Shown in pieces: positions 37,208 to 48,582 of a DNA stretch of 48,582 nucleotides (its first letter is position 1; the number at the start of each line of letters is the position of its first letter). This stretch comes from Rhodospirillaceae bacterium (lineage in GTDB: Bacteria; Pseudomonadota; Alphaproteobacteria; UBA828). Made by a program: the position numbers and the translations under genes. The notes beneath the pieces are model-generated. The model ran no database searches. It had not been told where the DNA came from and was given only the letters and a program-made list of their open reading frames with translations. Location: NCBI GenBank assembly GCA_018666805.1, contig JABIXB010000115.1, positions 1-48,582 of the forward strand, read 5' to 3'.

Positions 37208-38098
37208 TCAGGCGTGCAGGCGGGCAGGGTCGTAATCTGAAAAATAGGCAATACGGCGCGTCATATCGGCTGAGAGCCGCGCCGTAAAACGCTCAAACAG
37301 GTCAATATCCTGTCGCGCCACGGCAGTCATGCCGTGGCCCTGGGAAATATTGGTGTTGGCTGGCGGGCGGGCAATGACAGGCGAGTGGGTAAGGCCCAAT
37401 TGATCAAACGCTACGTTAATACGCTCCGAATCGTGCAGATGATCGGTGCGTATTTCGACAGACCGGGTGACGTTATGTGCCTCAACGATTTGATCAAAAC
37501 GCAGATACATTTCGCACCATGCCCAGAGATAAAATTCGCCCGGCGCAAAATCGGCGCTGTCGAGGCGAAGAATATTGCTCGCCTGATCCGGCAAATTATT
37601 GTCGAGACGAAAATTCTTACCGCGATTGAGGAAACTGCGCATGTTCAAGAGCGGATCCCGCACCAAGCGAATCAACGAGAATGACGGCAAGATACGCGCG
37701 AATCCCCGATGCAGACCGCGGGCAAAATATTTGCTCACATCAATATAGATATGCGCGTTATGGCGCGCGAGGATGCGTTCGGCCAGGCGGATGCGGCGGC
37801 GGGCAATTTTCTCAAGGTAAACGTCATCGCCCTGGTCAAAAGCGCTTAGCACCCGGCCACGGCCCAACAGTTCGTGTGTTTCAACAAAGCGCCTTCTGAA
37901 TCTGCGTTCATAATTTCCGAGAAAGCCGGGTAGGCGCCGATTGATGCTCGGCTCCTCAAATGCCGGGTAACAGCCCGGAACATGCTGGCGCAGCAGATTG
38001 GTCAGAGATGCCTGGCCACTGCGCCCAGCTGTCACGGTGAAAATGAATTGCCGTTGTGGCCCATTGCCAGCCATGGCGGACGCCGTCAGCTCGCTCAC
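37208..38098 (-). CDS. sulfotransferase-like protein
   Basis: A 296-residue P-loop protein. The N-terminal loop FTVTAGRSGQASLTNLLRQH (residues ~20-39) resembles the PAPS 5'-phosphosulfate loop of sulfotransferases, with GRSG replacing the more common PRSG. LIRLVRDPLLNMRSFLNRG is a good match to the 3'-phosphate-binding segment. It overlaps the pyruvate kinase-ATP sulfurylase gene by four bases, which strongly supports a PAPS-dependent role. Arginine-rich helices and lack of a signal peptide imply a cytosolic acceptor. Confidence 0.82.
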   Translation of the reverse strand: MSELTASAMAGNGPQRQFIFTVTAGRSGQASLTNLLRQHVPGCYPAFEEPSINRRLPGFLGNYERRFRRRFVETHELLGRGRVLSAFDQGDDVYLEKIARRRIRLAERILARHNAHIYIDVSKYFARGLHRGFARILPSFSLIRLVRDPLLNMRSFLNRGKNFRLDNNLPDQASNILRLDSADFAPGEFYLWAWCEMYLRFDQIVEAHNVTRSVEIRTDHLHDSERINVAFDQLGLTHSPVIARPPANTNISQGHGMTAVARQDIDLFERFTARLSADMTRRIAYFSDYDPARLHA

Positions 38099-40260
38099 GC
38101 GCTGACGATCGGCCGGCCGGCCGCAATTTCAGCGCGCAAATAATCCTGGATAATATCGCGCATGAACCATTCCGGCAGCGGCTCATTCCGGGCGATCGCC
38201 TGGCGTGCCTTGGAGCCGCTGATCGCGGTCGGGACACGCGCCTCACTGGCCGGCACATAGGCGTCCGTGGCCGAATCATAGGCGATTTCATCGAAGAATA
38301 CTGGCGCCACGCCGATATCGCCGAGTTGCTCGAACAATGCCCGGCTCTCTTCCGGCTGATAGAAATCACCGACCCCGGTGTGATCGCGACCAACGATAAA
38401 ATGGCTACAGCCGATATTCTTGCGGCACAGTGCCGTAAACACCGCTTCGCGCGGCCCGCTATAGCGCGGGTAAGTGGCAAAGCTGCCGAGCACGACCTTG
38501 CCGGCGGGATAAAGGTGAAAATCGAGCATGATCTGATAGCTCTTTAAAATAGGGCCGGGCAGGAAATCGCCTTGCTTGCGCGGGCCGATAACGGGACTGA
38601 TATAGAGACCGTCAGCCCGGGTCCCCTCCAGCGCCGCAAGTTGGATATGCTCATGCACCCGGTGCGCAACATTGCGGGTATGAAACCCGACCACCCGGCT
38701 CCACCCTTTGCGCGTAAAGAGAAAGCGCGTCTGTGCCGGTGTCAATTCGAACTGCCGGTACTCGGATGTCAAACGCCGCACCAGGGTGACCGCACCAGCG
38801 ACAAACACATCGCCGCGCCCGGCCAAACCCGCAACGCCTGGATGATCCATCGAATCAGTGCCAAACCAGGGCTGCACAATGCGCTCGAATTCGAGCGGGA
38901 ATATTTCTGAAATATCCAGCACCGCGTAAACCACGCCGGCGGCATTTTCAAGCGCCACACGATCGCCCACACCCGCACCGCCGAGTGCTTGGCGGGAAAG
39001 TTGCAGGGTAATCGGCAATGTCCAGACGGTGCCGTCCGGCAAGCGGTGCGTGGCGAGTACCGATTCAAGCGCCGCACTATCCATAAACCCGATGAGCGGT
39101 GAAAACGTGCCGAGGGCAATCTGCTGGCAATCCATCAGGGCGAGGTCGGAGACGCGAACACGCGGCAATTGCGTATCCGCCTCCGGCGCCATGGCCAAGG
39201 CTTCGCGGTGCACCAGATTTCCGCCATGCGGCTCGACCAACAGCGATGCCGGATCGGCAACATAGTGATCCGGTGTGAGCGTGCTGCCCGCTTCGAACGA
39301 GCGGATCAGCTTGACGATCATACTGGCGCAGGCGATGGGATAGGCGCCGATCGCCGTTTCCGCCGCGAGCACCAGGCCATCGACGCCATCCAACAATGTG
39401 TTGTGCACATCATTAACTTCGGCCCGGGTTGGCGCCGGCGCAACGATCATCGATTCGAGTAGATTGGTCGCGACATAGACCTTGCGCTCAACCGCTTTGG
39501 TGCGGCGCGTAATTTGTTTTTGTAGGGCCGGTATATGCTCGACCGGAAATTCGCGGCTGAGATCTCCCCGGTCGATCAAAATGGCATCCGAGCGCGTCGC
39601 GATTTCCTCGAGATTTTCAACGCCGTTGCGGCACTCGATCTTCGAAATCACCCGCGCAGCGTCGCCGGCGTGGCGGCGAATCTCATCAACATCGCTGGGG
39701 AAATTTGCGAACGACAAAGCAACATGATCGATGCCTTTATCGCGGCCGATTTTCAGCGCTGCGATATCCTTTTCGGTGAGCGGCGGCATGGTCAATGCGC
39801 GCTCCACCGTAACCGCCTTGTTGCTGCCGATTTCGCCGCCATTGAGCACGCGCACCGCCACACCTTCCGCACCGGCCTCGATGACCTGCACTAAAACGGC
39901 ATTAAAATCGATGCTGATAAAATCGCCGATTTCGAGTTCGTCCGGAATATAGGCGGGATAGAGATTAAAGCAGCGCGCATTGCCGGGCGCTCGCGCACGG
40001 GGAATTTGAATTATCTCGTTCTCGGCGATCATTACTTTGCCATCGACAAACGCGCCGGTACGCACTTGCGCACCTTCCGTGTCGAGGCAAACCGGCACAT
40101 CGGTATGGCTGCGAATGGTATCGATGACGTCGCTCACATCAGCCAGCGCCGTGTGCGACAAATTGATGCGAAAGAGTGTCGCGCCCAATTCAGCGAGGCG
40201 CCCAATAACATGCCCATTCATCGATGCCGGGCCGAGCGTACAAAAAATATCTTTGCTCAC
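38095..40260 (-). CDS. fused pyruvate kinase core - ATP sulfurylase
   Basis: A 721-residue fusion. Residues 1-325 match the pyruvate kinase A and B domains: CTLGPAS start, R31/N33/S35 in FRINLSH, D60/T61 in LDTEGAQVRTG, K207/E209 in ISKIEC, D233 in RGDL, T265 in ATNLLES and PTRAEVNDV. All catalytic positions I can place are kept, but the C-terminal allosteric domain is absent. From ~340 to the end it is ATP sulfurylase: PHGG (344), TRNVAHRVHEH (528-538), PREAVF, GRDHTGVGDF (624-633) and SGSKAR. The Sat HxGH-like motif reads FHTRNVAH, differing from the usual QTRNPxH. GTG 40260 is chosen, 11 bases after AAAGGG; a longer frame reaches 40305. Sat makes APS from sulfate and ATP; PK could regenerate ATP from ADP. 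No APS kinase domain is present. Confidence 0.93.
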   Translation of the reverse strand: MSKDIFCTLGPASMNGHVIGRLAELGATLFRINLSHTALADVSDVIDTIRSHTDVPVCLDTEGAQVRTGAFVDGKVMIAENEIIQIPRARAPGNARCFNLYPAYIPDELEIGDFISIDFNAVLVQVIEAGAEGVAVRVLNGGEIGSNKAVTVERALTMPPLTEKDIAALKIGRDKGIDHVALSFANFPSDVDEIRRHAGDAARVISKIECRNGVENLEEIATRSDAILIDRGDLSREFPVEHIPALQKQITRRTKAVERKVYVATNLLESMIVAPAPTRAEVNDVHNTLLDGVDGLVLAAETAIGAYPIACASMIVKLIRSFEAGSTLTPDHYVADPASLLVEPHGGNLVHREALAMAPEADTQLPRVRVSDLALMDCQQIALGTFSPLIGFMDSAALESVLATHRLPDGTVWTLPITLQLSRQALGGAGVGDRVALENAAGVVYAVLDISEIFPLEFERIVQPWFGTDSMDHPGVAGLAGRGDVFVAGAVTLVRRLTSEYRQFELTPAQTRFLFTRKGWSRVVGFHTRNVAHRVHEHIQLAALEGTRADGLYISPVIGPRKQGDFLPGPILKSYQIMLDFHLYPAGKVVLGSFATYPRYSGPREAVFTALCRKNIGCSHFIVGRDHTGVGDFYQPEESRALFEQLGDIGVAPVFFDEIAYDSATDAYVPASEARVPTAISGSKARQAIARNEPLPEWFMRDIIQDYLRAEIAAGRPIVSA

Positions 40261-40276
40261 AGTGTCGAAAACCCTT

Positions 40277-41353
40277 TCATGACTGTTCTGGGTGCTCGCC
40301 AGCAACGTCGTCCCAGCTGATCGCGGTGCCGCGCGCGAGATCGCGGGCGGCGCGTCGGCCGAGAAGCGCCGGCAGATACTTCGGCGCGAGACCGTGGCCC
40401 GGGCGAATTGAGCGTAAGTTTTCCACGCTTAACAATTCGCCCGCCTTGATGTTTTGCACTACATATAATGAGCGGCGAAAATTTAAATTTTCAGCCTCGG
40501 ACGGTGTGCGGCTGAATTCGGGCGAGCCGATCGCGCGCCAGGCGATGCCACAGGCTTCCGCCATATCGGCAAATTCATTCGGTTCGAGCGAGAACCCGGC
40601 ATCGGGGCCGCCATCGGCGCGGCGCAGGGCAACATGCTTCTCCACGATGGCGGCACCGCGTGCCACCGCCGAGATAGCCACTGCGGTGCCCAGGGTATGG
40701 TCCGAGAGGCCCACCACCGCATCGAAGCGCGCCGCCAATTGTTCCATCACCGCGAGATTTGCCTCGTCAGGCGGTGTCGGATAGCCGCTCGTGCAATGCA
40801 GCAGGGCAAGCTCGCTGCAGCCCGCACCGCGCGCCGCATCAACCGCTTCGCTGATCTCTTCCGCCGTCGCCAAGCCAGTCGACATGAGGAGCGGCTTACC
40901 GGTCTGTGCCATGCATTCGATCAGCGGCAGATCGATAAGTTCGAACGACGCCACCTTGTAGGCCGGCGCGCCCAGCTGCTGCAAAAGCGCCACCGCCGTC
41001 GGATCGAACGGGCTGGAGAATATCGTCAGGCCAATTTGCCGCGCTTTTTCAAATAACGCCGCATGCCATTCCCACGGCGTGTGCGCCTCCTGATACAAAT
41101 CATAAAGCGTGCGGCCGGCCCAAGGCCCGCCCTCAATGCGAAAATCAGGGCCGTCATGATCGATGGTAATTGTGGCCGCCGTGTAGGTTTGAATTTTGAC
41201 GGCATCCGCACCGGCCCGGCTTACCGCCTCCATCAGATCGAAGGCGCGTTCGATATCGCCTAGATGATTACCGGATAATTCGGCGATGACATAGGGCGGC
41301 TCACCCGCGCCGATGCGCCGCCCGGCAATGGAAAATTTATTCGCCGTATTCAC
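40277..41353 (-). CDS. pseI: pseudaminic acid synthase (PseI, NeuB family)
   Basis: PseI condenses a 2,4-diacetamido-trideoxy hexose with PEP to form the nonulosonic acid. PYVIAELSGNHLGDIERAF and the RTLYDLYQEAHTPWEWHAAL segment are PseI signatures and distinguish it from sialic or legionaminic synthases; a C-terminal SAF/antifreeze-like domain is present (RSLYVVQNIKAGE, RPGHGLAPKYL). GTG 41353 overlaps the upstream stop as GTGA and gives 358 aa. Substitutions such as GNHLGD for the usual GNHNQ make the exact stereochemistry of the product uncertain. Confidence 0.92.
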   Translation of the reverse strand: MNTANKFSIAGRRIGAGEPPYVIAELSGNHLGDIERAFDLMEAVSRAGADAVKIQTYTAATITIDHDGPDFRIEGGPWAGRTLYDLYQEAHTPWEWHAALFEKARQIGLTIFSSPFDPTAVALLQQLGAPAYKVASFELIDLPLIECMAQTGKPLLMSTGLATAEEISEAVDAARGAGCSELALLHCTSGYPTPPDEANLAVMEQLAARFDAVVGLSDHTLGTAVAISAVARGAAIVEKHVALRRADGGPDAGFSLEPNEFADMAEACGIAWRAIGSPEFSRTPSEAENLNFRRSLYVVQNIKAGELLSVENLRSIRPGHGLAPKYLPALLGRRAARDLARGTAISWDDVAGEHPEQS

Positions 41354-42819
41354 GATAAACCGCGCTGACGAAGCCAACCGCTTTGCTCCGCTTCGCTATA
41401 TCCGGCGCGCTCGAACAAGGATCGGCTGGCAATATTATCGCTCGCGACATGGGCCAATAGATCAGCCTCCGGCACCAACTGATGCAGCAATGTGAGAGTG
41501 ATACCGCCGATGCCGAGGCGAAAGTACGCCGGGTCAACAGCGATCGAAACTTCGTAGCCCTCGGGCAGGCGATCAAGCCGCGCCACCCCGGCGGGGGTTT
41601 CGCCGAGCAGGATCAGATTCATAAAACAGCCGGGGTCATAGAGTTTGCCACGCATCCAGCATGTGTGCTCGGCCTGGCTCGGAATATTTCGATTGCGGGC
41701 AAAACGGCGCGTTTCCGGCTTGCGCTGCAATTCAAGCAAGAGGTCGCTATCCTCCGCGGTCACTGGGCGCAAGCGAACCGCCTGCCCATCGCGCGCGCAC
41801 GGCAATTCGCCAACCGCCTGGCTCACCCGAATCGCACCGATGCCGTCGGCCAAGCGCGACGCCGCGCGGGACATGCGCTCAAGCGCGGCGCTATCGCCGG
41901 CCAGTGCATTGATAGCTTCGACCAGTGCATTTGTTTCCGGCTTGACGATTCGCGCCGCACCGGCAGCCGCTAAGGCCTCGGCGTTGGCTCGCTGATTGTC
42001 GGCAATTACCAGCAAAAGCGTCGGCAGACCAAGAGTGCAGCGCTCCCAACTGCTCATCCCGCCGGCGCCCACCGCAATGTCCGCATCGGCCATTAGTTCG
42101 GCCATATTGTCGACATCGACATGGACCCGTCCGCCGGCGCGCTCGGCCCGCGCCGCGAGACGCTCGCCATCGGGCGTATTCCAGGCCAGTACGAGATCGG
42201 GAGCAAGGCGCAGCGATGCCTGTTCAATGGCATCAAGCACCTTGTCCAATACACCCTTCGGGTTCGTTGCGCCGAGCCCCAGCAAAACGCGTTTGGCAGC
42301 ACCGTCATAATTTCGCGGCAGCAAGCGCTGGCGGGTGGCGGCAAAACCGGGCATCAGCAACGCGTAAGCCGGGCCAAGCAGACACAGGGCGTTATCAGGT
42401 ACACACCCGCGATAGTCATCAGCGCTGCCGCCCGGCGCCATGTCCAATAGAAAGTCACAGTCATGCGCGCGTTCGGCAAGATCATCGATGGCCAGGATTG
42501 TGTCGGCCCAGCCCCGGCAGGACGATGCGTAGCCGGCATCGCGCTCATAATGATCGAGTACGAACAAGCGGCAACCGGCGCGCCAATGCGCGCGCATTTG
42601 AGTGACTTCATCTTGATCGGTCGCCAGAACCACAACCTCATCGAAACGTTCGGCGAGACGCGCCGTCATCGCGGCATTATCCGATGCCGTTGCCCAGGCA
42701 CAGCGCCAACCCACATTGTTAAGGGCAGTGGCGAGGGCCGAACAGCGCATGACATGGCCCCAGCCGATGGTTGAGCCCGCATCGGCACGGAAAACGGCAA
42801 GCGGCGCGTCGGCGTTCAT
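41350..42819 (-). CDS. pseG: PseG-type UDP-sugar hydrolase fused to a GNAT acetyltransferase (PseH-like)
   Basis: A 489-residue fusion. Residues 1-335 are PseG-like GT-B fold: FRADAGSTIGWGHVMRCSAL with catalytic His22, and AVGAGGMSSWERCTLGLPTL for UDP binding. Residues ~345-489 are a GNAT domain (VRLRPVTAEDSDLL, VSIAVDPAYFRLGIGGITL, SLFERAGY), likely the PseH activity that N-acylates the 4-amino sugar. One polypeptide would thus do the last two steps before PseI. It overlaps pseI and the SpsF fusion by four bases each. Confidence 0.9.
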   Translation of the reverse strand: MNADAPLAVFRADAGSTIGWGHVMRCSALATALNNVGWRCAWATASDNAAMTARLAERFDEVVVLATDQDEVTQMRAHWRAGCRLFVLDHYERDAGYASSCRGWADTILAIDDLAERAHDCDFLLDMAPGGSADDYRGCVPDNALCLLGPAYALLMPGFAATRQRLLPRNYDGAAKRVLLGLGATNPKGVLDKVLDAIEQASLRLAPDLVLAWNTPDGERLAARAERAGGRVHVDVDNMAELMADADIAVGAGGMSSWERCTLGLPTLLLVIADNQRANAEALAAAGAARIVKPETNALVEAINALAGDSAALERMSRAASRLADGIGAIRVSQAVGELPCARDGQAVRLRPVTAEDSDLLLELQRKPETRRFARNRNIPSQAEHTCWMRGKLYDPGCFMNLILLGETPAGVARLDRLPEGYEVSIAVDPAYFRLGIGGITLTLLHQLVPEADLLAHVASDNIASRSLFERAGYSEAEQSGWLRQRGLS

Positions 42820-44876
42820 CGGACGGCGAACACCGGAACGAGCGGTGGCGTTTTCATTTGCGTTTCGAAATCGCCGCTATCGAGCGCTGCGCGGATTATC
42901 GCGAACGCACCGTCATAGGCGGCTGCCGCGTGGGCCATGTCTTCTTCCGTGTGAGCATAGGAAATATTATGGCTGCCGAGCGAAAGCACACCGCGCGCCG
43001 CCATTTCATAAATCAGCATAGTCTTGATCGCTTGCCCGCTGGCGGCGGGGCCGTCATGCGTTGTCACCAGCATCCATGGCGCAAAGCCTTGCAGGCTGAT
43101 CTGATCTTCGAGATTGTGTGCGGAAATCAGCCCGCGTACGGCTTCGGCCAGTTGTTCGCCGCTACGCCACAGGGTTTCGATCACCGGCTCGCGCCGCATC
43201 TTATCGATTGTGGCGATCGAAGCGGCGAGCGAGAGCGCCTCACCGCCGAAAGTGGACGAAAAGAATATTTCCTCCATCTCCGCCATGATATCGGCGCGGC
43301 CAACAACAGCCGATATCGGCATACCGTTGGCCATGCCCTTGCCGAAAGTCGCCAGGTCGGGGGTCACGCCAAAGAGCGTTTGCGCGCCGCCAAGAGCAAA
43401 GCGGAAACCGGTGATCATCTCGTCAATAATCAGCAAAGCGCCATGCTTATGAAGAAGCTCGCGCAGCGCCGCCAGATAACCCGGCGCCGGCGCGACAATA
43501 TTTGCCGGCTCCATGATCAGGGCGGAGATCTCACCCGGATGTTCTTTTAACAGGCCGGCAACGGCATCAAGATCGTTATAGGGCACGGTATGGGTTAAAG
43601 CGCGCACCGCATCGGGCACGCCTTTGTGGCGTGTGGTCGCACCGATATACCAGTCCTGCCAACCGTGATAGCCACACGAAATGATGCGCTCACGTCCGGT
43701 AAAGGCGCGCGCCAGGCGCACCGCCGCCGATGTTGCATCCGAACCATTTTTGCCGAAACGCACCTTCTCAGCGCAGGGAATACATTCAACCAAGCGCTCC
43801 GCCAATTGCCGCTCGAGGCGAGTGGCGAGCGAAAAACTGATTCCTTCGGCAAGCTGCGCCGCAATTGCCGCGTCCACGTCCGGGTCGCGGTAGCCGAGCG
43901 ATACGCTGAGCAGGCCATTGACGAGATCGACATATTCATTGCCATCGACATCCCACGACCGCCCACCATCGCCATGAGTTAAGAAAAGCGGCGCGGCGCC
44001 GACCGGAAATTGCACCCGGCTCTTGCTGAACGTTTGAGCACCAAGCGGAATTGTTTTCTCAGCCGCGGCAAGCTCCTCGGCCGAAGCATCATAAGACCGT
44101 TGCTCCGGCACCTTTGCGCCGGCGATGCGCTCGTTGCGGAGGGAAATCCACGAACCCTCATTGTGCGACTTGCCTCGGTTGATCTGGCGCAGCTCGGGAT
44201 ATTGCTCCAGCACGCGCAATATCTCGACAAAGCCGGGTGGTCGATCCGTTGGTAAATGTGCCGCCACGGCGCGAAGAAATTGCAGATCTTGCGGCGTGTC
44301 GAGCGCCCAATTTTCGCGCTGAAGCCCGGCGAAGGGGCAAGGCAACCCGCGCACCGAAAAGCGTCGCCGATTATGACGCAGATAAGGCGTGACATGCTCG
44401 CGCTCAAATGGCCGCGAAGCCGCTTCCGCCGCGGCCAGCAGCGCATCGGCCGAGAACACTTCGCAATCGAGCCCATCGGCCCACACCGTCGGGTCGACAT
44501 TGCTCGCATAATCGGCGCCGCTACTTTCGAACAACCACAGCACCTGGCCACAGACGGCAGGGTCGAGAAAAGGTGTGTCTGCGGTGAGGCGCATCACGAT
44601 GCGCGCATCAAGCTGGCGGATTGCGTCTGCGTAGCGGGCCAGTACATCCTGCTCGGAACCGCGTACACAGGCAACACCGGCGCCGGCGCACCATTCGGCG
44701 AGTTGATCATCGCCGGCCGCATCGCTGGTCGCAATCGCGACCTCCTCGATGCCGGGCACCGCCCGCGCCGCGCATACCACCCACTCAAGCGCCGGACGGC
44801 CGCCAAGGTCTTGCAATACCTTACCAGGTAATCTACTCGAGCCCATGCGGGCCTGAATGATGGCAACATTTGTCAC
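42816..44876 (-). CDS. SpsF-like cytidylyltransferase fused to class III aminotransferase
   Basis: A 686-residue fusion. Residues 1-245 are a PseF/SpsF-type nucleotidyltransferase: IIQARMGSSRLPGKVLQDLGG, MRLTADTPFLDP and ENWALDTPQDL, expected to activate a nonulosonic acid with CTP. Residues ~265-686 are a fold-type I class III (glutamate-1-semialdehyde-aminomutase-like) aminotransferase: FGKNGSDATSAAVRLAR, CGYHGWQDWY, LIIDEMITGFR and PLP-lysine K513 in ATFGKGMANGMP. The aminotransferase may add the amino group to a keto-nonulosonate or a related precursor. It is coupled to the PseG fusion by a four-base overlap. Confidence 0.9.
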   Translation of the reverse strand: MTNVAIIQARMGSSRLPGKVLQDLGGRPALEWVVCAARAVPGIEEVAIATSDAAGDDQLAEWCAGAGVACVRGSEQDVLARYADAIRQLDARIVMRLTADTPFLDPAVCGQVLWLFESSGADYASNVDPTVWADGLDCEVFSADALLAAAEAASRPFEREHVTPYLRHNRRRFSVRGLPCPFAGLQRENWALDTPQDLQFLRAVAAHLPTDRPPGFVEILRVLEQYPELRQINRGKSHNEGSWISLRNERIAGAKVPEQRSYDASAEELAAAEKTIPLGAQTFSKSRVQFPVGAAPLFLTHGDGGRSWDVDGNEYVDLVNGLLSVSLGYRDPDVDAAIAAQLAEGISFSLATRLERQLAERLVECIPCAEKVRFGKNGSDATSAAVRLARAFTGRERIISCGYHGWQDWYIGATTRHKGVPDAVRALTHTVPYNDLDAVAGLLKEHPGEISALIMEPANIVAPAPGYLAALRELLHKHGALLIIDEMITGFRFALGGAQTLFGVTPDLATFGKGMANGMPISAVVGRADIMAEMEEIFFSSTFGGEALSLAASIATIDKMRREPVIETLWRSGEQLAEAVRGLISAHNLEDQISLQGFAPWMLVTTHDGPAASGQAIKTMLIYEMAARGVLSLGSHNISYAHTEEDMAHAAAAYDGAFAIIRAALDSGDFETQMKTPPLVPVFAVR

Positions 44877-44898: not shown

Positions 44899-45588
44899 CT
44901 ATGGGCGGTCTTTGACGAGATAAGCCGTCGGCGTCGGGGTGCGTTCGAACATCCTCAGTTTTGGTGGATGTTCGAGCCCGGCAAGAAACTCATCGGCGGC
45001 ATCCGATTCGCCCCACGCGTCCACCGCATATTGATCGAATACGACCATGCCGCCGACGACAACGCGCGGCCACGCCGCCTCCAACAAATTCTTGGTGGCA
45101 GCGTAAACGTCGAGATCACAATGCAAGAGACTAATGCGAAAACCGGGGCGTTCATCGAGATAGTCCGGTAGGGTTTGCGTGATATCGCCTTTGACCATCT
45201 CCACCCGCGCCGCCAAATCCAGCCGTTCGATCGCTTCGCTTATTTGCTCGTATGCAGATTCCTCGAAAAGCTTGCTGTGGCGCTCGGCGCTCTTTGCCTC
45301 GTCCTCACGCACGCGTGGAAACTTGGCCTCGAAGGTATCAAAACTCACCACCTTGGCTTTCCCGTGCGGTTGATAGATTTTCAAAAAATGCGCCATCTGG
45401 ATCGTGCTGACGCCCTTGAAAGTGCCGGCATCGACAATGTCGCCCGGTACATCAGCCACCCCGCGCACCAAATCGGCCCGAGCCATAAGTTTTTGAAAAC
45501 GATGGGTATCGCAGAGATAGTGGAAGCGGTTGAAGGTCTCCCACATAAGCGCATCATCCGGATCGGAAAGGTGAGGCGCGCCGGTCAT
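44899..45588 (-). CDS. TylF/MycF-family O-methyltransferase
   Basis: A 229-residue SAM- and metal-dependent methyltransferase of the macrocin O-methyltransferase family. DIVDAGTFKGVSTIQMAHFL is the SAM site, VVSFDTFEAKF follows, and LLHCDLDVYAATKNLLEAAW with VVFDQY carries the metal-binding aspartates. Family members O-methylate sugars. Its start overlaps the acyl carrier protein stop (ATGA), which hints that the substrate may be carrier-bound or that the modified group is attached to the nonulosonate next door. Confidence 0.88.
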   Translation of the reverse strand: MTGAPHLSDPDDALMWETFNRFHYLCDTHRFQKLMARADLVRGVADVPGDIVDAGTFKGVSTIQMAHFLKIYQPHGKAKVVSFDTFEAKFPRVREDEAKSAERHSKLFEESAYEQISEAIERLDLAARVEMVKGDITQTLPDYLDERPGFRISLLHCDLDVYAATKNLLEAAWPRVVVGGMVVFDQYAVDAWGESDAADEFLAGLEHPPKLRMFERTPTPTAYLVKDRP

Positions 45589-45839
45589 TGATTTGCTCCC
45601 TGCATGGCTTCCTTCACCACCTCGACGGCCAGGTCGAATGTCAGCATTTCGACCTGCTGCTCCACTGTTAGGTCGACGCCCAAAGTTTCGTTAATCGCAT
45701 TCACCAGATGAATGTGGTGCAGCGAATCCCATTGCTCGCAATCGTCGGGCGACAACTCCAATACCACCTTCTCGGGCGGAAGTTGCAGGATCGCGACGAA
45801 AATCTCGCGAACGCGTTGCTCTATATTCTGTTCGCTCAT
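45585..45839 (-). CDS. acyl carrier protein
   Basis: An 84-residue four-helix carrier protein. The phosphopantetheine serine is S39 in CEQWDSLHHIHLVNAI, a DSL-type motif. It is not the fatty-acid AcpP by its divergent sequence and location. A good AGGAAA ribosome-binding site precedes ATG 45839. Its neighbours, an FkbH-like protein and a MaoC-SDR fusion, imply a dedicated acyl or glyceryl group carried for glycan modification. Confidence 0.9.
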   Translation of the reverse strand: MSEQNIEQRVREIFVAILQLPPEKVVLELSPDDCEQWDSLHHIHLVNAINETLGVDLTVEQQVEMLTFDLAVEVVKEAMQGANQ

Positions 45840-45867
45840 TTTTTTCCTTTCGGCGTCAACTCAACTC

Positions 45868-47679
45868 TCAGCGCCCGCAGCCGATGTCTCGCGGTGTCTC
45901 GATGGCGATGTGCGGCGGTTTTGCAATGCCCCCGTCGGCGAGCTCGCAAACAAAACGCTGGCCCTCTTCCGTGGCGGTCGAGAAACCGAGCCGGCGGAGG
46001 GCCTCCGGCACTTGGCTGTTGCGCGGGCCCGGAACAAAATCAGCAACCAGCGCCGTCGCCCCCTGGGCATGCGCTTGCGCGCTGCTAAATGCCAGAAGCG
46101 AGTCCTCGACCAGACAGCCAAGCGCGCGGCAACTCACCGCCATATTGGCGATACACAACTGGTTGGCTTTCGCATTGAGTTCAAGGGCGGCGATAATGCC
46201 GTAGTCGCCAAAGCGATCGCGGAGCTCAGCACTGTAAATGTGACTGTCTGTGCCCACGCGCCGGCGAATCTCATCAAGGGTCGGGCGGTCAAGAGTCAGG
46301 TTGAACTGGTTCGTCTTATTGAGAAGTTTGTGAATCCGCTCAAGCGTCCGTGCTTCGGCCGGACGAATCGAAAGGCGCAATTTCATGGAGCGGTAAAATG
46401 TATCAAGATTGCCCGCCAACGCCGCGATCTCGCCGCGCTTCTGCTCGTGGCGATAGCTCTCGGCCCGAATCGCATCTTCGCGGGTAACGCGCAGCACGTC
46501 GAACGCCTGGCACGCCAGAAGCTGATCGCTGAACGCCTCCGGCCGCTTGCCAAGCTCGACCACCTCGACCATCGGCAGTGCCTGGCGCACAAGATCACAT
46601 TCTTTCGGACTGTCATCGACGAATACGAAGCTGTCGAGCCCAAGGCCAAGTTCCTCGGCCAGCTCAATCAGATTCTCCGCCTTGTTGCGCCAATTGATCC
46701 GGTAAGCGCTAAAATCGTCCCAGGCGAGAATAATTTCCGGCCGGCGCTCAAACACCGCGCGCGCATCCGCCTCTTCATTCTTGCTGCAAATCGCAAGCAG
46801 AATGCCACTACGGCGCAAATCACGCAGGGTTCGGTGAAACGCCAGATAGGCCGGGCCGGGCCAGACCTCGCCGAGGGCAATGCCATCAACACCGTCCTCA
46901 CCAACGATACCGCCCCACAGCGTGTCGTCGAGATCGACCACCAGAACCTTGCGCCGAGGACGAAAAAGACAGCCGACATGGCGGGCTATGCCGCGTGCGA
47001 CGACGGCCATGCCGCGCCCGGTAAGGAGGGATAAATTGTTGAGATAACCGCGCTCGTCAAACACCTCTGAGTTTTCGCCGCCAAGCCATGCCGGCAGGTC
47101 GAGAAGGTGGACATCGTCAAGCTCGAGCGCCAGCGCGACCAGCGAGTCCTGCGCCATCGCCAGCGCCCGCGGCCGCCCTTCCGCTGGACCTTCGCCCAAG
47201 CTCAAGGCATGACGCGCCGGCGGCTCGGCAAGAAGTCCGATAAACAGGGGAATCGTACTTTGCTGGCGAAATCCGCGCAGCAGATCCACGACCCACCCAA
47301 TGCCGGCCGTGCCGCCATCATCCTCGCTGCCGAGAACGGCATCGCCGTGCAGCAGAACAACGCAAGCTTCGGGCGTCGGCTCACTCAAGCGCTCCGGCGC
47401 GGCCAACGCCGTGCGCCACTCACCATATTGCATAAAGCGCGGCGCAACCCACCAGCCGGCGGTAAAGGCCTCGACATCAAGAAACGGCGCCATAGTCTCG
47501 ACCGTAAACGAGGACAAAACCGCCACTTGGCGGACCGTGTCGGCGGGCGGCAGGCGGCCCAGCCATTGCATGTAATTCATTGTCGTTGGCGCTTCGTCGA
47601 GCACCGAACGCAGGCGCGCCCGCGCCTCGGTCTGGCGCCCCGTATCGCAAAGTAAAGTTTCGAGCGGGCTCGCACTCAT
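45868..47679 (-). CDS. FkbH-like HAD-superfamily protein with C-terminal GNAT-like region
   Basis: A 603-residue protein. The HAD motif VVDLDDTLWGGIVGEDGVDG (D249, D251, T253) and ICSKNEEADARAVFE, KAENLIELAEELGLGLDSFVFVDDSP are classical FkbH features; residues 1-235 are an SGNH-like N-terminal region seen in long FkbH proteins, and residues ~420-600 are GNAT-like (YSAELRDRFGDYGIIAAL, SCRALGCLVEDSLL). FkbH proteins dephosphorylate 1,3-bisphosphoglycerate and load glyceryl onto an ACP in polyketide pathways. The next gene downstream is an ACP. It overlaps the SDR gene by four bases. Confidence 0.9.
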   Translation of the reverse strand: MSASPLETLLCDTGRQTEARARLRSVLDEAPTTMNYMQWLGRLPPADTVRQVAVLSSFTVETMAPFLDVEAFTAGWWVAPRFMQYGEWRTALAAPERLSEPTPEACVVLLHGDAVLGSEDDGGTAGIGWVVDLLRGFRQQSTIPLFIGLLAEPPARHALSLGEGPAEGRPRALAMAQDSLVALALELDDVHLLDLPAWLGGENSEVFDERGYLNNLSLLTGRGMAVVARGIARHVGCLFRPRRKVLVVDLDDTLWGGIVGEDGVDGIALGEVWPGPAYLAFHRTLRDLRRSGILLAICSKNEEADARAVFERRPEIILAWDDFSAYRINWRNKAENLIELAEELGLGLDSFVFVDDSPKECDLVRQALPMVEVVELGKRPEAFSDQLLACQAFDVLRVTREDAIRAESYRHEQKRGEIAALAGNLDTFYRSMKLRLSIRPAEARTLERIHKLLNKTNQFNLTLDRPTLDEIRRRVGTDSHIYSAELRDRFGDYGIIAALELNAKANQLCIANMAVSCRALGCLVEDSLLAFSSAQAHAQGATALVADFVPGPRNSQVPEALRRLGFSTATEEGQRFVCELADGGIAKPPHIAIETPRDIGCGR

Positions 47680-48582
47680 GCCATTGTCCTGCCGCCATCG
47701 ATGACCAGATCGTGGCCGTTGATATAGGCGCTCTGATCACTGGAGAGAAAAGCCACCGCGCCGGACACCTCATCGACCTCGGCCAAACGCCTTAGCGGAC
47801 TTTGCGCCGCCGCAAGCTTGCGCGTCTTGCTCGGCACGCTGGCGGTCAAATCCGTCACCATGAATCCCGGCGAAACAATATTGGCGCGGATACCTTTCGG
47901 CGCCAATTCGAGAGCGATGGACTTGGCGAGCTGTGTCCCCGCCGCCTTGGCCGCCGCATAGGGCGCCATGCCATTTGGCGGCGCGCCATGGGTTGCGGTA
48001 CTGCCGATGTAGATGAACAGCCCGCCACCGCTCTCGATCATCGCGGGAGCGGTGCTCTGTACCAGCCGATGCAGGCCGCCCGCCTGAATTTCGAAATGGC
48101 GGCGAAAGATTTCCCAATCCGTGCTCTCCACCCGGGCATTGGGAAGCGCCGCACTGGCGGCATGTACCACCAAGGTCGGCGCGCCAATCGCGTCGCGTAT
48201 CGTGGCCACAGCATTATTTACCGCCGCCGCGTCGGTCAGGTCGAGCGCGGCGGCAACGGCGTCAACACCGGTCTCGCGCAAATGCTTGGCCGTGGCGGCG
48301 TTGCGTTCGGCACTTCGGCCGCAAAGGGCAAGGGAATATCCGTCACGGGCAAGCGCCGCCGCGATGGCGGAGCCAAGCCCGCCACTGGCGCCGGCGATCA
48401 GTGCAACGCGCCGCGTTCCGCCGGCCACTGGCGCGCGCGCACCGGCGCGCTCGCCAATCTCGGCGCCCGGCAGCACAACCGTGCTTTCCCCTTCCATCAC
48501 CAGGCGTCCATCGGCCGTCACCGCCTCGACCGCAAGCTTGAGCGTCCGTGTCGCCGACACCGCCTCAACCACCTCCGCCGCG
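47676..48582 (-). CDS. MaoC-like hydratase - short-chain reductase fusion, N-terminus cut by window edge
   Basis: The frame is open to the right edge, so the 5' end is missing. The visible first ~45 residues (VSATRTLKLAVEAVTADGRL, then VMEGESTVVLPG) resemble the last strands of a MaoC/hot-dog hydratase. From there a FabG-like SDR follows: LIAGASGGLGSAIAAAL cofactor loop, YIGSTATHG, catalytic PYAAAKAAGTQLAKS and IRANIVSPGFMVTD. It probably reduces and/or dehydrates a 3-oxoacyl/3-hydroxyacyl thioester on the nearby ACP. The fusion inference is less certain than the SDR domain. Confidence 0.82.
   Translation of the reverse strand, partial: AAEVVEAVSATRTLKLAVEAVTADGRLVMEGESTVVLPGAEIGERAGARAPVAGGTRRVALIAGASGGLGSAIAAALARDGYSLALCGRSAERNAATAKHLRETGVDAVAAALDLTDAAAVNNAVATIRDAIGAPTLVVHAASAALPNARVESTDWEIFRRHFEIQAGGLHRLVQSTAPAMIESGGGLFIYIGSTATHGAPPNGMAPYAAAKAAGTQLAKSIALELAPKGIRANIVSPGFMVTDLTASVPSKTRKLAAAQSPLRRLAEVDEVSGAVAFLSSDQSAYINGHDLVIDGGRTMA

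Follow-up and report, generated by a model that had tools for sequence, protein, structure and literature searches.

Many bacterial surface sugars bear hydroxyacyl, glyceryl or lactyl groups, and to our knowledge the donors of such groups are seldom known, the source of the glyceryl in the di-O-methylglyceryl pseudaminic acid (Pse) of Campylobacter being one open case. A donor route that begins with an enzyme of the FkbH family is familiar from antibiotic assembly lines and hardly described for surface sugars. Here we analyze a 48,582-nucleotide stretch of DNA from a Rhodospirillaceae bacterium (the window; contig C12 of draft genome G000, 317 contigs, 98.3% complete), in which genes for an FkbH protein, a dedicated acyl carrier protein (ACP) and a fusion of a MaoC hydratase with a short-chain dehydrogenase/reductase (MaoC-SDR) lie inside a nonulosonic acid operon. 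The FkbH modules that load D-lactyl-ACP in polyketide assembly are presumably of the bryostatin type.

Several described systems share parts with this locus. In the FK520, tetromadurin and RK-682 pathways to methoxymalonyl-ACP or tetronates, an FkbH-family enzyme is paired with a stand-alone ACP, 1,3-bisphosphoglycerate is the expected substrate, and formation of glyceryl-ACP from it has been assigned to FkbH family enzymes (PMC7489565); the locus described here differs in having no FkbI/FkbK-type dehydrogenase pair, FabH or polyketide synthase (PKS), and instead combines MaoC-SDR with a GNAT in an operon for surface sugars. The D-lactyl-ACP loading modules of PKSs have in common with it an FkbH, a dehydratase, a ketoreductase and an ACP, and have been modelled as converting 1,3-bisphosphoglycerate and ACP to D-lactate-ACP (PMC7901079). 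In our locus, however, these are discrete small proteins, the dehydratase is of the MaoC type rather than a PKS dehydratase domain, and the product is proposed to go to an N-acyltransferase, not to a ketosynthase.

Among glycan loci, the flagellar locus of Campylobacter jejuni (Cj1295, Cj1302) also has an fkbH-domain gene among Pse genes, and its product carries a glyceric-acid-type substituent (PMC7099621, PMC3068675); the Rhodospirillaceae locus adds to this the MaoC-SDR fusion and a GNAT linked to it, and a search of the window and the adjoining contig gave no DUF2172 protein of the Cj1295 type. The flagellin glycosylation islands of Aeromonas and Enterobacteriaceae have an ACP and a 3-oxoacyl-ACP reductase between pse genes and, in some groups, class III aminotransferase and Gfo/Idh/MocA genes, as here. 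They differ in carrying LuxC/LuxE genes, with acyl activation by LuxE or an AMP-dependent synthetase and no mention of FkbH (PMC7874193, PMC4875605). A full-text literature search of partial coverage returned no paper linking FkbH with O-antigen, and only one linking it with pseudaminic acid (PMC7099621). Carrier-protein chemistry in nonulosonic acid loci is already known, as is the use of FkbH with a dehydratase and a reductase in polyketide loading; what is new, so far as the literature searched shows, is the recurrence of an FkbH-ACP-MaoC-SDR set that gene order and fusion link to sugar N-acyltransferases, and the behavior of this set as a cassette.

A probable tailoring cassette in a nonulosonic acid operon

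We are confident, short of certainty, that these genes form a removable tailoring cassette in a nonulosonic acid or surface glycan operon, and that by a load-and-transfer logic it gives a thioester acyl donor for the N-acylation of an amino sugar. The cassette genes at 45585-48582 of the window are all on the minus strand and overlap or nearly do so. Of the MaoC domain, no more than about 45 residues are found there; the remainder is on a second contig of the same genome (C288; L003, 10,822 bases), which overlaps the last 317 bp of the window end to end with three mismatches, the pattern expected of an assembly break. The join is backed independently by synteny in genomes compared for module membership, two of the same genus (G003 and G005) and one of the same family (G006): MaoC-SDR is a single gene in the same order in G006 and G005, and in G003 the gene order of C288 adjoins the gene set of the window. 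The three mismatches in the overlap (48266-48582) also suggest strain mixture in the assembly.

Read across the join, the operon runs from CapS1, an ABC transporter, a cupin, a CBS-domain/epimerase fusion, PseC, CapS2, a Gfo/Idh/MocA oxidoreductase (Gfo) and a GNAT through MaoC-SDR, FkbH and ACP to a TylF-family methyltransferase, an SpsF-aminotransferase fusion (SpsF-GSAM), a PseG-GNAT fusion, PseI, a pyruvate kinase-ATP sulfurylase fusion (PK-ATP sulfurylase) and a possible sulfotransferase (Table 1). Overlaps or a few tens of bases separate its genes: GNAT and MaoC-SDR, MaoC-SDR and FkbH, ACP and TylF, and SpsF-GSAM and PseG-GNAT each overlap by 4 bp, and gaps of 28 and 22 bp follow FkbH and TylF. 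This is the arrangement reported in an initial annotation made from the sequence alone, which described an ACP with a DSL serine, an FkbH and a hydratase-reductase fusion joined by overlaps or short gaps and followed by TylF and the Pse genes; TylF itself falls just outside the range 45585-48582 given there. Recent acquisition of foreign DNA was rejected, as the GC content of the cassette, overall and at third codon positions, matches the remainder of the operon.

The proteins retain the features expected of their families. FkbH scored over the TIGR01686 cut-off with its DxDxT, (C)SKN and DD motifs intact, and the HAD motif residues D249, D251, S299, K300, D355 and D356, together with C517, are invariant in six aligned FkbH proteins. 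The ACP fell slightly below the Pfam PP-binding cut-off (20.1 against 20.8 bits, E 7.6e-4) and was recognized by an NCBIfam ACP model (E 7e-7); its D-S-L carrier site lies in a WDSL block that is invariant across seven aligned carriers, in which WDSLxH is conserved. The joined MaoC-SDR protein is 398 aa long, with MaoC at the N-terminus, and carries a DDNPLH hydratase motif and a YAAAK SDR motif; its MaoC domain is closest to R-specific enoyl-CoA hydratases and its SDR domain to the FabG family. All four parts of lactyl-ACP loading (FkbH, dehydratase, ketoreductase and ACP) are present in one operon with intact motifs. A structural model of the upstream GNAT (predicted local distance difference test, pLDDT, 83) has the standard GNAT fold and matches the sugar N-acyltransferases PseH (Z 20.3) and FdhC (Z 20.6), with many other GNATs about equal in score, so that the search does not discriminate substrate class. 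The AlphaFold model of CapS2 was of low confidence (pLDDT 43, two sequences) and was not interpreted.

The initial annotation had named upstream polyketide or nonribosomal peptide synthetase (NRPS) genes as the finding that would count against a sugar-related role, and neither was seen on C288 or elsewhere in the joined operon. FkbH, ACP and an O-methyltransferase are common to methoxymalonyl and tetronate clusters, and the module could in principle supply a methoxymalonyl-ACP or tetronate-type precursor to a PKS located elsewhere. We judge this very improbable given the lack of PKS or NRPS genes, the presence of a ketosynthase motif in just 1 of 80 related loci (in Streptomyces), the absence of FkbI (acyl-CoA dehydrogenase) and FkbK (3-hydroxyacyl-CoA dehydrogenase) Pfam domains from the scanned operon genes, and the absence of any FabH-like/KAS III match from the window and C288.

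Comparison with the related genomes indicates which genes travel together. In G006 the order is PseB, PseC, a CapS2-like protein, GNAT, MaoC-SDR, FkbH, ACP, TylF, a 500-aa protein, PseG, PseI, SpsF and a GNAT-aminotransferase fusion. G005 has only GNAT, MaoC-SDR, FkbH and ACP, beside Gfo, hexapeptide acetyltransferase, DegT, WbqC and radical SAM genes. The order GNAT, MaoC-SDR, FkbH, ACP is kept in both, and this conservation, full in G006 and partial in G005, argues that the arrangement is not due to chance; a SAR116 genome (L098) has GNAT, FkbH, ACP and MaoC-SDR, in that order. The syntenic locus of G003 encodes CapS1, ABC transporter, cupin, CBS-epimerase, PseC, SpsF, PK-ATP sulfurylase, a 689-aa frame, TylF, PseG-GNAT, PseI and AsnB, without CapS2, Gfo, the upstream GNAT, MaoC-SDR, FkbH or ACP, and no FkbH match was found anywhere in that genome. 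Because this locus has the rest of the genes without these, the removable part is CapS2-Gfo-GNAT-MaoC/SDR-FkbH-ACP. In another genome without an FkbH match (G002), an orphan ACP 72% identical to the module ACP of G005 lies in a related locus (L176 10577-10828, minus strand) and is possibly the remnant of a lost module.

The same comparison alters two assignments of the initial annotation, which had counted TylF in the module and named the GNAT domain of the PseG fusion as recipient of the acyl group. TylF has a 57% identical orthologue in the G003 locus, where FkbH and ACP are lacking, and the PseG-GNAT fusion is kept in G001 and G003, both without FkbH. Since both are present in cassette-less G003, TylF and the PseG-fused GNAT belong to the core locus; TylF was rejected as a module member and the fused GNAT is disfavored as its transferase. 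The GNAT directly upstream is the likelier transferase, because its homologues accompany the cassette in G005, G006 and SAR116. What stands of the earlier proposal is that a nonulosonic acid locus holds an FkbH/ACP module, whose acyl group probably goes to an N-acyltransferase of the GNAT type.

FkbH loci across phyla

A scan of 84,980 species genomes provided 80 named FkbH loci from many phyla, in which neighbors within 2.5 kb on the same strand were counted with models built from relatives. ACP was found near FkbH in 68 of the 80 loci, MaoC in 24 and SDR in 21, and MaoC gave 24 matches in 367 kb near FkbH against none in 655 kb lying more than 4 kb away. On a tree of 96 FkbH rows, many changes of the MaoC/SDR label are required, and for MaoC plus SDR well-supported branches force at least nine, indicating that the association was gained or lost repeatedly. 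Most cases of KAS III beside FkbH fall in a Bacteroidales group that has no MaoC; of the 16 loci with both MaoC and SDR, only one has it.

Links to sugar N-acylation recur in these loci. The clearest is L061, in which FkbH carries a fused N-acyltransferase of the AAC(3) type (PF02522, E 1e-26), a single protein combines MaoC, SDR and ACP and has a WDSL carrier domain at its end, and PseI-like, SpsF, TylF and DUF2172/DUF4910 genes are also present. Sugar-type N-acyltransferases (PF02522 or GNAT) stand beside or near FkbH or ACP in L075, L148, L074 and L137. A neighborhood survey of this kind had been suggested as a check on the initial annotation, and it places FkbH/ACP next to PseI-like genes in L074 (Paludibaculum), L099 (Melioribacter) and L148. 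DUF2172/DUF4910, the domain type missing from our locus, does co-occur with FkbH and MaoC-SDR in L061 and L137. In L137 (5080-7239) the fusion partner of a DUF4910/DUF2172 protein (Cj1295 family, M28 peptidase-like) is an N-acyltransferase of the AAC(3) type; the gene lies close to FkbH and MaoC-SDR, and the arrangement suggests deacylation and then re-acylation of an amino sugar. FkbH-ACP-MaoC sets were also seen in thaumarchaea (Nitrososphaerota; L089, L116, L142, L147), with a NeuB-like frame nearby on the opposite strand in L089 and L142.

Our broadest proposal, which we advance tentatively, is that FkbH, ACP, MaoC and SDR make up a stand-alone pathway, widespread in bacteria and perhaps also in archaea, that would convert the glycolytic intermediate 1,3-bisphosphoglycerate to lactyl-ACP, or a related C3 acyl-ACP, solely for the N-acylation of surface amino sugars, and that this cassette, together with an N-acyltransferase of its own, moves from one glycan locus to another.

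A proposed route from 1,3-bisphosphoglycerate to an N-acylated sugar

The hydratase and reductase chemistry of MaoC and SDR proteins is established family knowledge, and from it a route can be proposed. FkbH would move the glyceryl group of 1,3-bisphosphoglycerate onto the dedicated ACP, as family knowledge and the intact motifs predict; MaoC might then dehydrate 2,3-dihydroxypropionyl-ACP by way of an enol-pyruvyl to pyruvoyl-ACP, which the fused SDR might reduce to lactyl-ACP; finally, judging by linkage, the upstream GNAT would take the acyl group from the ACP and pass it to a sugar amine. MaoC and SDR most simply act on the FkbH-loaded unit because the cassette has one ACP and no other loading enzyme, and because KAS III, so rare beside MaoC plus SDR, is absent from the window and C288. 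That MaoC and SDR may turn the FkbH-loaded glyceryl into lactyl was an option left unconsidered in the initial annotation. We regard the chain as a whole, a C3 acyl group loaded by FkbH, processed by MaoC/SDR and attached to an amino sugar by the GNAT upstream, as evenly balanced, and lactyl as the particular unit transferred as plausible, at or just short of that level.

Certain observations weigh against this route or its acceptor. The upstream GNAT resembles CoA-dependent enzymes; the MaoC/SDR pair is missing within 3 kb in 64 of the 80 FkbH loci, where glyceryl may be the product; PseB was not found over its cut-off in G000 (best score 174.4 against 407.75, in a draft of 317 contigs); and in G005, a draft that is 86% complete, the module has Wlb-like genes as neighbors and no PseI scored over cut-off.

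The scarcity of MaoC/SDR beside most FkbH-ACP pairs would suit a donor of glyceryl or O-methylglyceryl, made by FkbH as glyceryl-ACP and capped by a methyltransferase while MaoC-SDR serves something else. C. jejuni 11168, which has di-O-methylglyceryl Pse and whose flagellar glycosylation locus includes the fkbH-domain gene cj1302 (PMC7099621, PMC3068675), presumably uses such a methyl-capped route, DysB, an FkbH/methyltransferase/sulfotransferase protein, is implicated in the formation of sulfated glyceric acid (PMC6520454), and TylF comes directly after ACP here, with a 4-bp overlap, and follows ACP in G006. We nevertheless consider this unlikely for our locus, since G003 has TylF without the cassette, the part kept with FkbH in G005 is MaoC-SDR and not TylF, and the nearest solved relatives of TylF all methylate sugars: CalS11 (a TDP-rhamnose 3'-O-methyltransferase), MycF and NovP. 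The missing Cj1295-type protein also speaks against a Campylobacter-like route. TylF, outside the module, would methylate a hydroxyl of the sugar (or of the acyl group), and probably that of the sugar.

Alternatively, SDR and MaoC could build a 3-hydroxybutyryl or longer 3-hydroxyacyl group on the ACP, the former being a product the initial annotation had offered. The family affinities of the two domains would fit, 3-hydroxybutyryl is often found on the amino sugars of bacteria, nonulosonic acids among them (PMC3210612), and FkbH clusters with KAS III do occur in Bacteroidales. This donor is improbable here, however, as it has no evident carbon source, with no ketosynthase, KAS III, thiolase or acyl ligase among the examined operon genes, and as it leaves FkbH without a role. 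Chain extension by KAS III was likewise set aside, with no match in the window, on C288, or in the G005 and G006 stretches examined.

The lactyl route leaves the choice of acceptor. The acceptor sugar may not be a nonulosonic acid, because neither PseB in G000 nor PseI in G005 was found over its cut-off, and the module could instead modify another sugar of the same surface glycan, such as a Wlb-type 2,3-diamino sugar. The Gfo, hexapeptide acetyltransferase, DegT and WbqC genes beside the G005 module favor this, as does a similar set of genes in the window, at roughly 26.7-32.3 kb, but the module sits between pseC and pseG/pseI in the window and G006, and FkbH/ACP lies beside PseI-like genes in further phyla. 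We consider another sugar rather unlikely, and somewhat favor a nonulosonic acid as the acceptor in this genome. The amine acylated would be the 4-amine that PseC makes, on which the PseG-fused GNAT perhaps already acts, or an extra amine from the class III aminotransferase, a candidate for adding a third amino group to the sugar; both G000 and G006 have the latter enzyme, and the G003 locus lacks it. A nonulosonic acid of Flexibacter maritimus has an 8-amino group and an N-3-hydroxybutyryl group (PMC3210612), so an extra amine and a hydroxyacyl group on one such sugar do exist in nature.

The surrounding locus

PseC, PseG and PseI all scored over their equivalog cut-offs (PseC, on C288, with 501.9 against 423.5 bits). 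PseB is present in G006, and in G000 and G003 the CBS-domain/GalE-like epimerase fusion sits at the place expected for PseB, before PseC. The PseG-fused GNAT, which had no match among solved structures, probably provides the PseH function of the core pathway. The aminotransferase is fused to an SpsF-type enzyme in G000 and to a GNAT domain in G006. PK-ATP sulfurylase shares an operon with PseI and is followed directly by the sulfotransferase-like gene, which, taken with an APS kinase domain found on another contig (G000:C160), suggests a sulfated glycan. Two more NeuB/PseI-type synthases, below the PseI cut-off, were found elsewhere (L172, G000:C77; L173, G000:C199), and the genome may hold three nonulosonic acid pathways.

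Table 1. Features of the joined operon; positions are in the window unless given on L003 (contig C288).
Feature	Position	Strand	Evidence
MaoC-SDR fusion, C-terminal ~three quarters (MaoC end and whole SDR)	47676..48582	minus	Pfam adh_short_C2 5e-49
MaoC-SDR, N-terminal MaoC domain	L003 10216-10822 (C288)		PF01575 8e-19
FkbH, HAD-IIIC glyceryl-loading enzyme family, 603 aa	45868..47679	minus	TIGR01686 287.7 bits vs cut-off 146.65
Dedicated ACP, 84 aa, phosphopantetheine Ser39 in WDSL	45585..45839	minus	motif and NCBIfam
TylF-family O-methyltransferase, core locus	44899..45588	minus	PF05711 2.9e-18
SpsF-type cytidylyltransferase fused to class III (GSA-like) aminotransferase	42816..44876	minus	PF02348 8.8e-31, PF00202 1.3e-50
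PseG-GNAT fusion, core Pse pathway, probably PseH function	41350..42819	minus	TIGR03590 222.8 vs 153.55 bits
PseI, pseudaminic acid synthase	40277..41377	minus	TIGR03586 465.7 vs 340.25 bits
Pyruvate kinase barrel-ATP sulfurylase fusion	38095..40305	minus	PF00224 1.7e-70, PF01747 9.6e-58; 65% identical in G003
Possible sulfotransferase, 296 aa	37208..38098	minus	motifs TAGRSGQASL, LVRDP; no significant Pfam match
Upstream GNAT	L003 9569-10219 (C288)		directly 5' of MaoC-SDR
CapS2, 619 aa	L003 6723-8582 (C288)		no Pfam match
CBS-domain/GalE-like epimerase fusion	L003 4045-5469 (C288)		

Through conserved gene order and two gene fusions, the survey connects sugar N-acyltransferases with FkbH/ACP modules, which have long been assigned to polyketide assembly. 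The hypothesis is concrete and easily assayed, as it predicts a mass shift of the ACP of +88, then +72. Such a route could account for N-acyl diversity in the surface glycans of many phyla, and could let FkbH/ACP genes be annotated correctly rather than as secondary metabolism.

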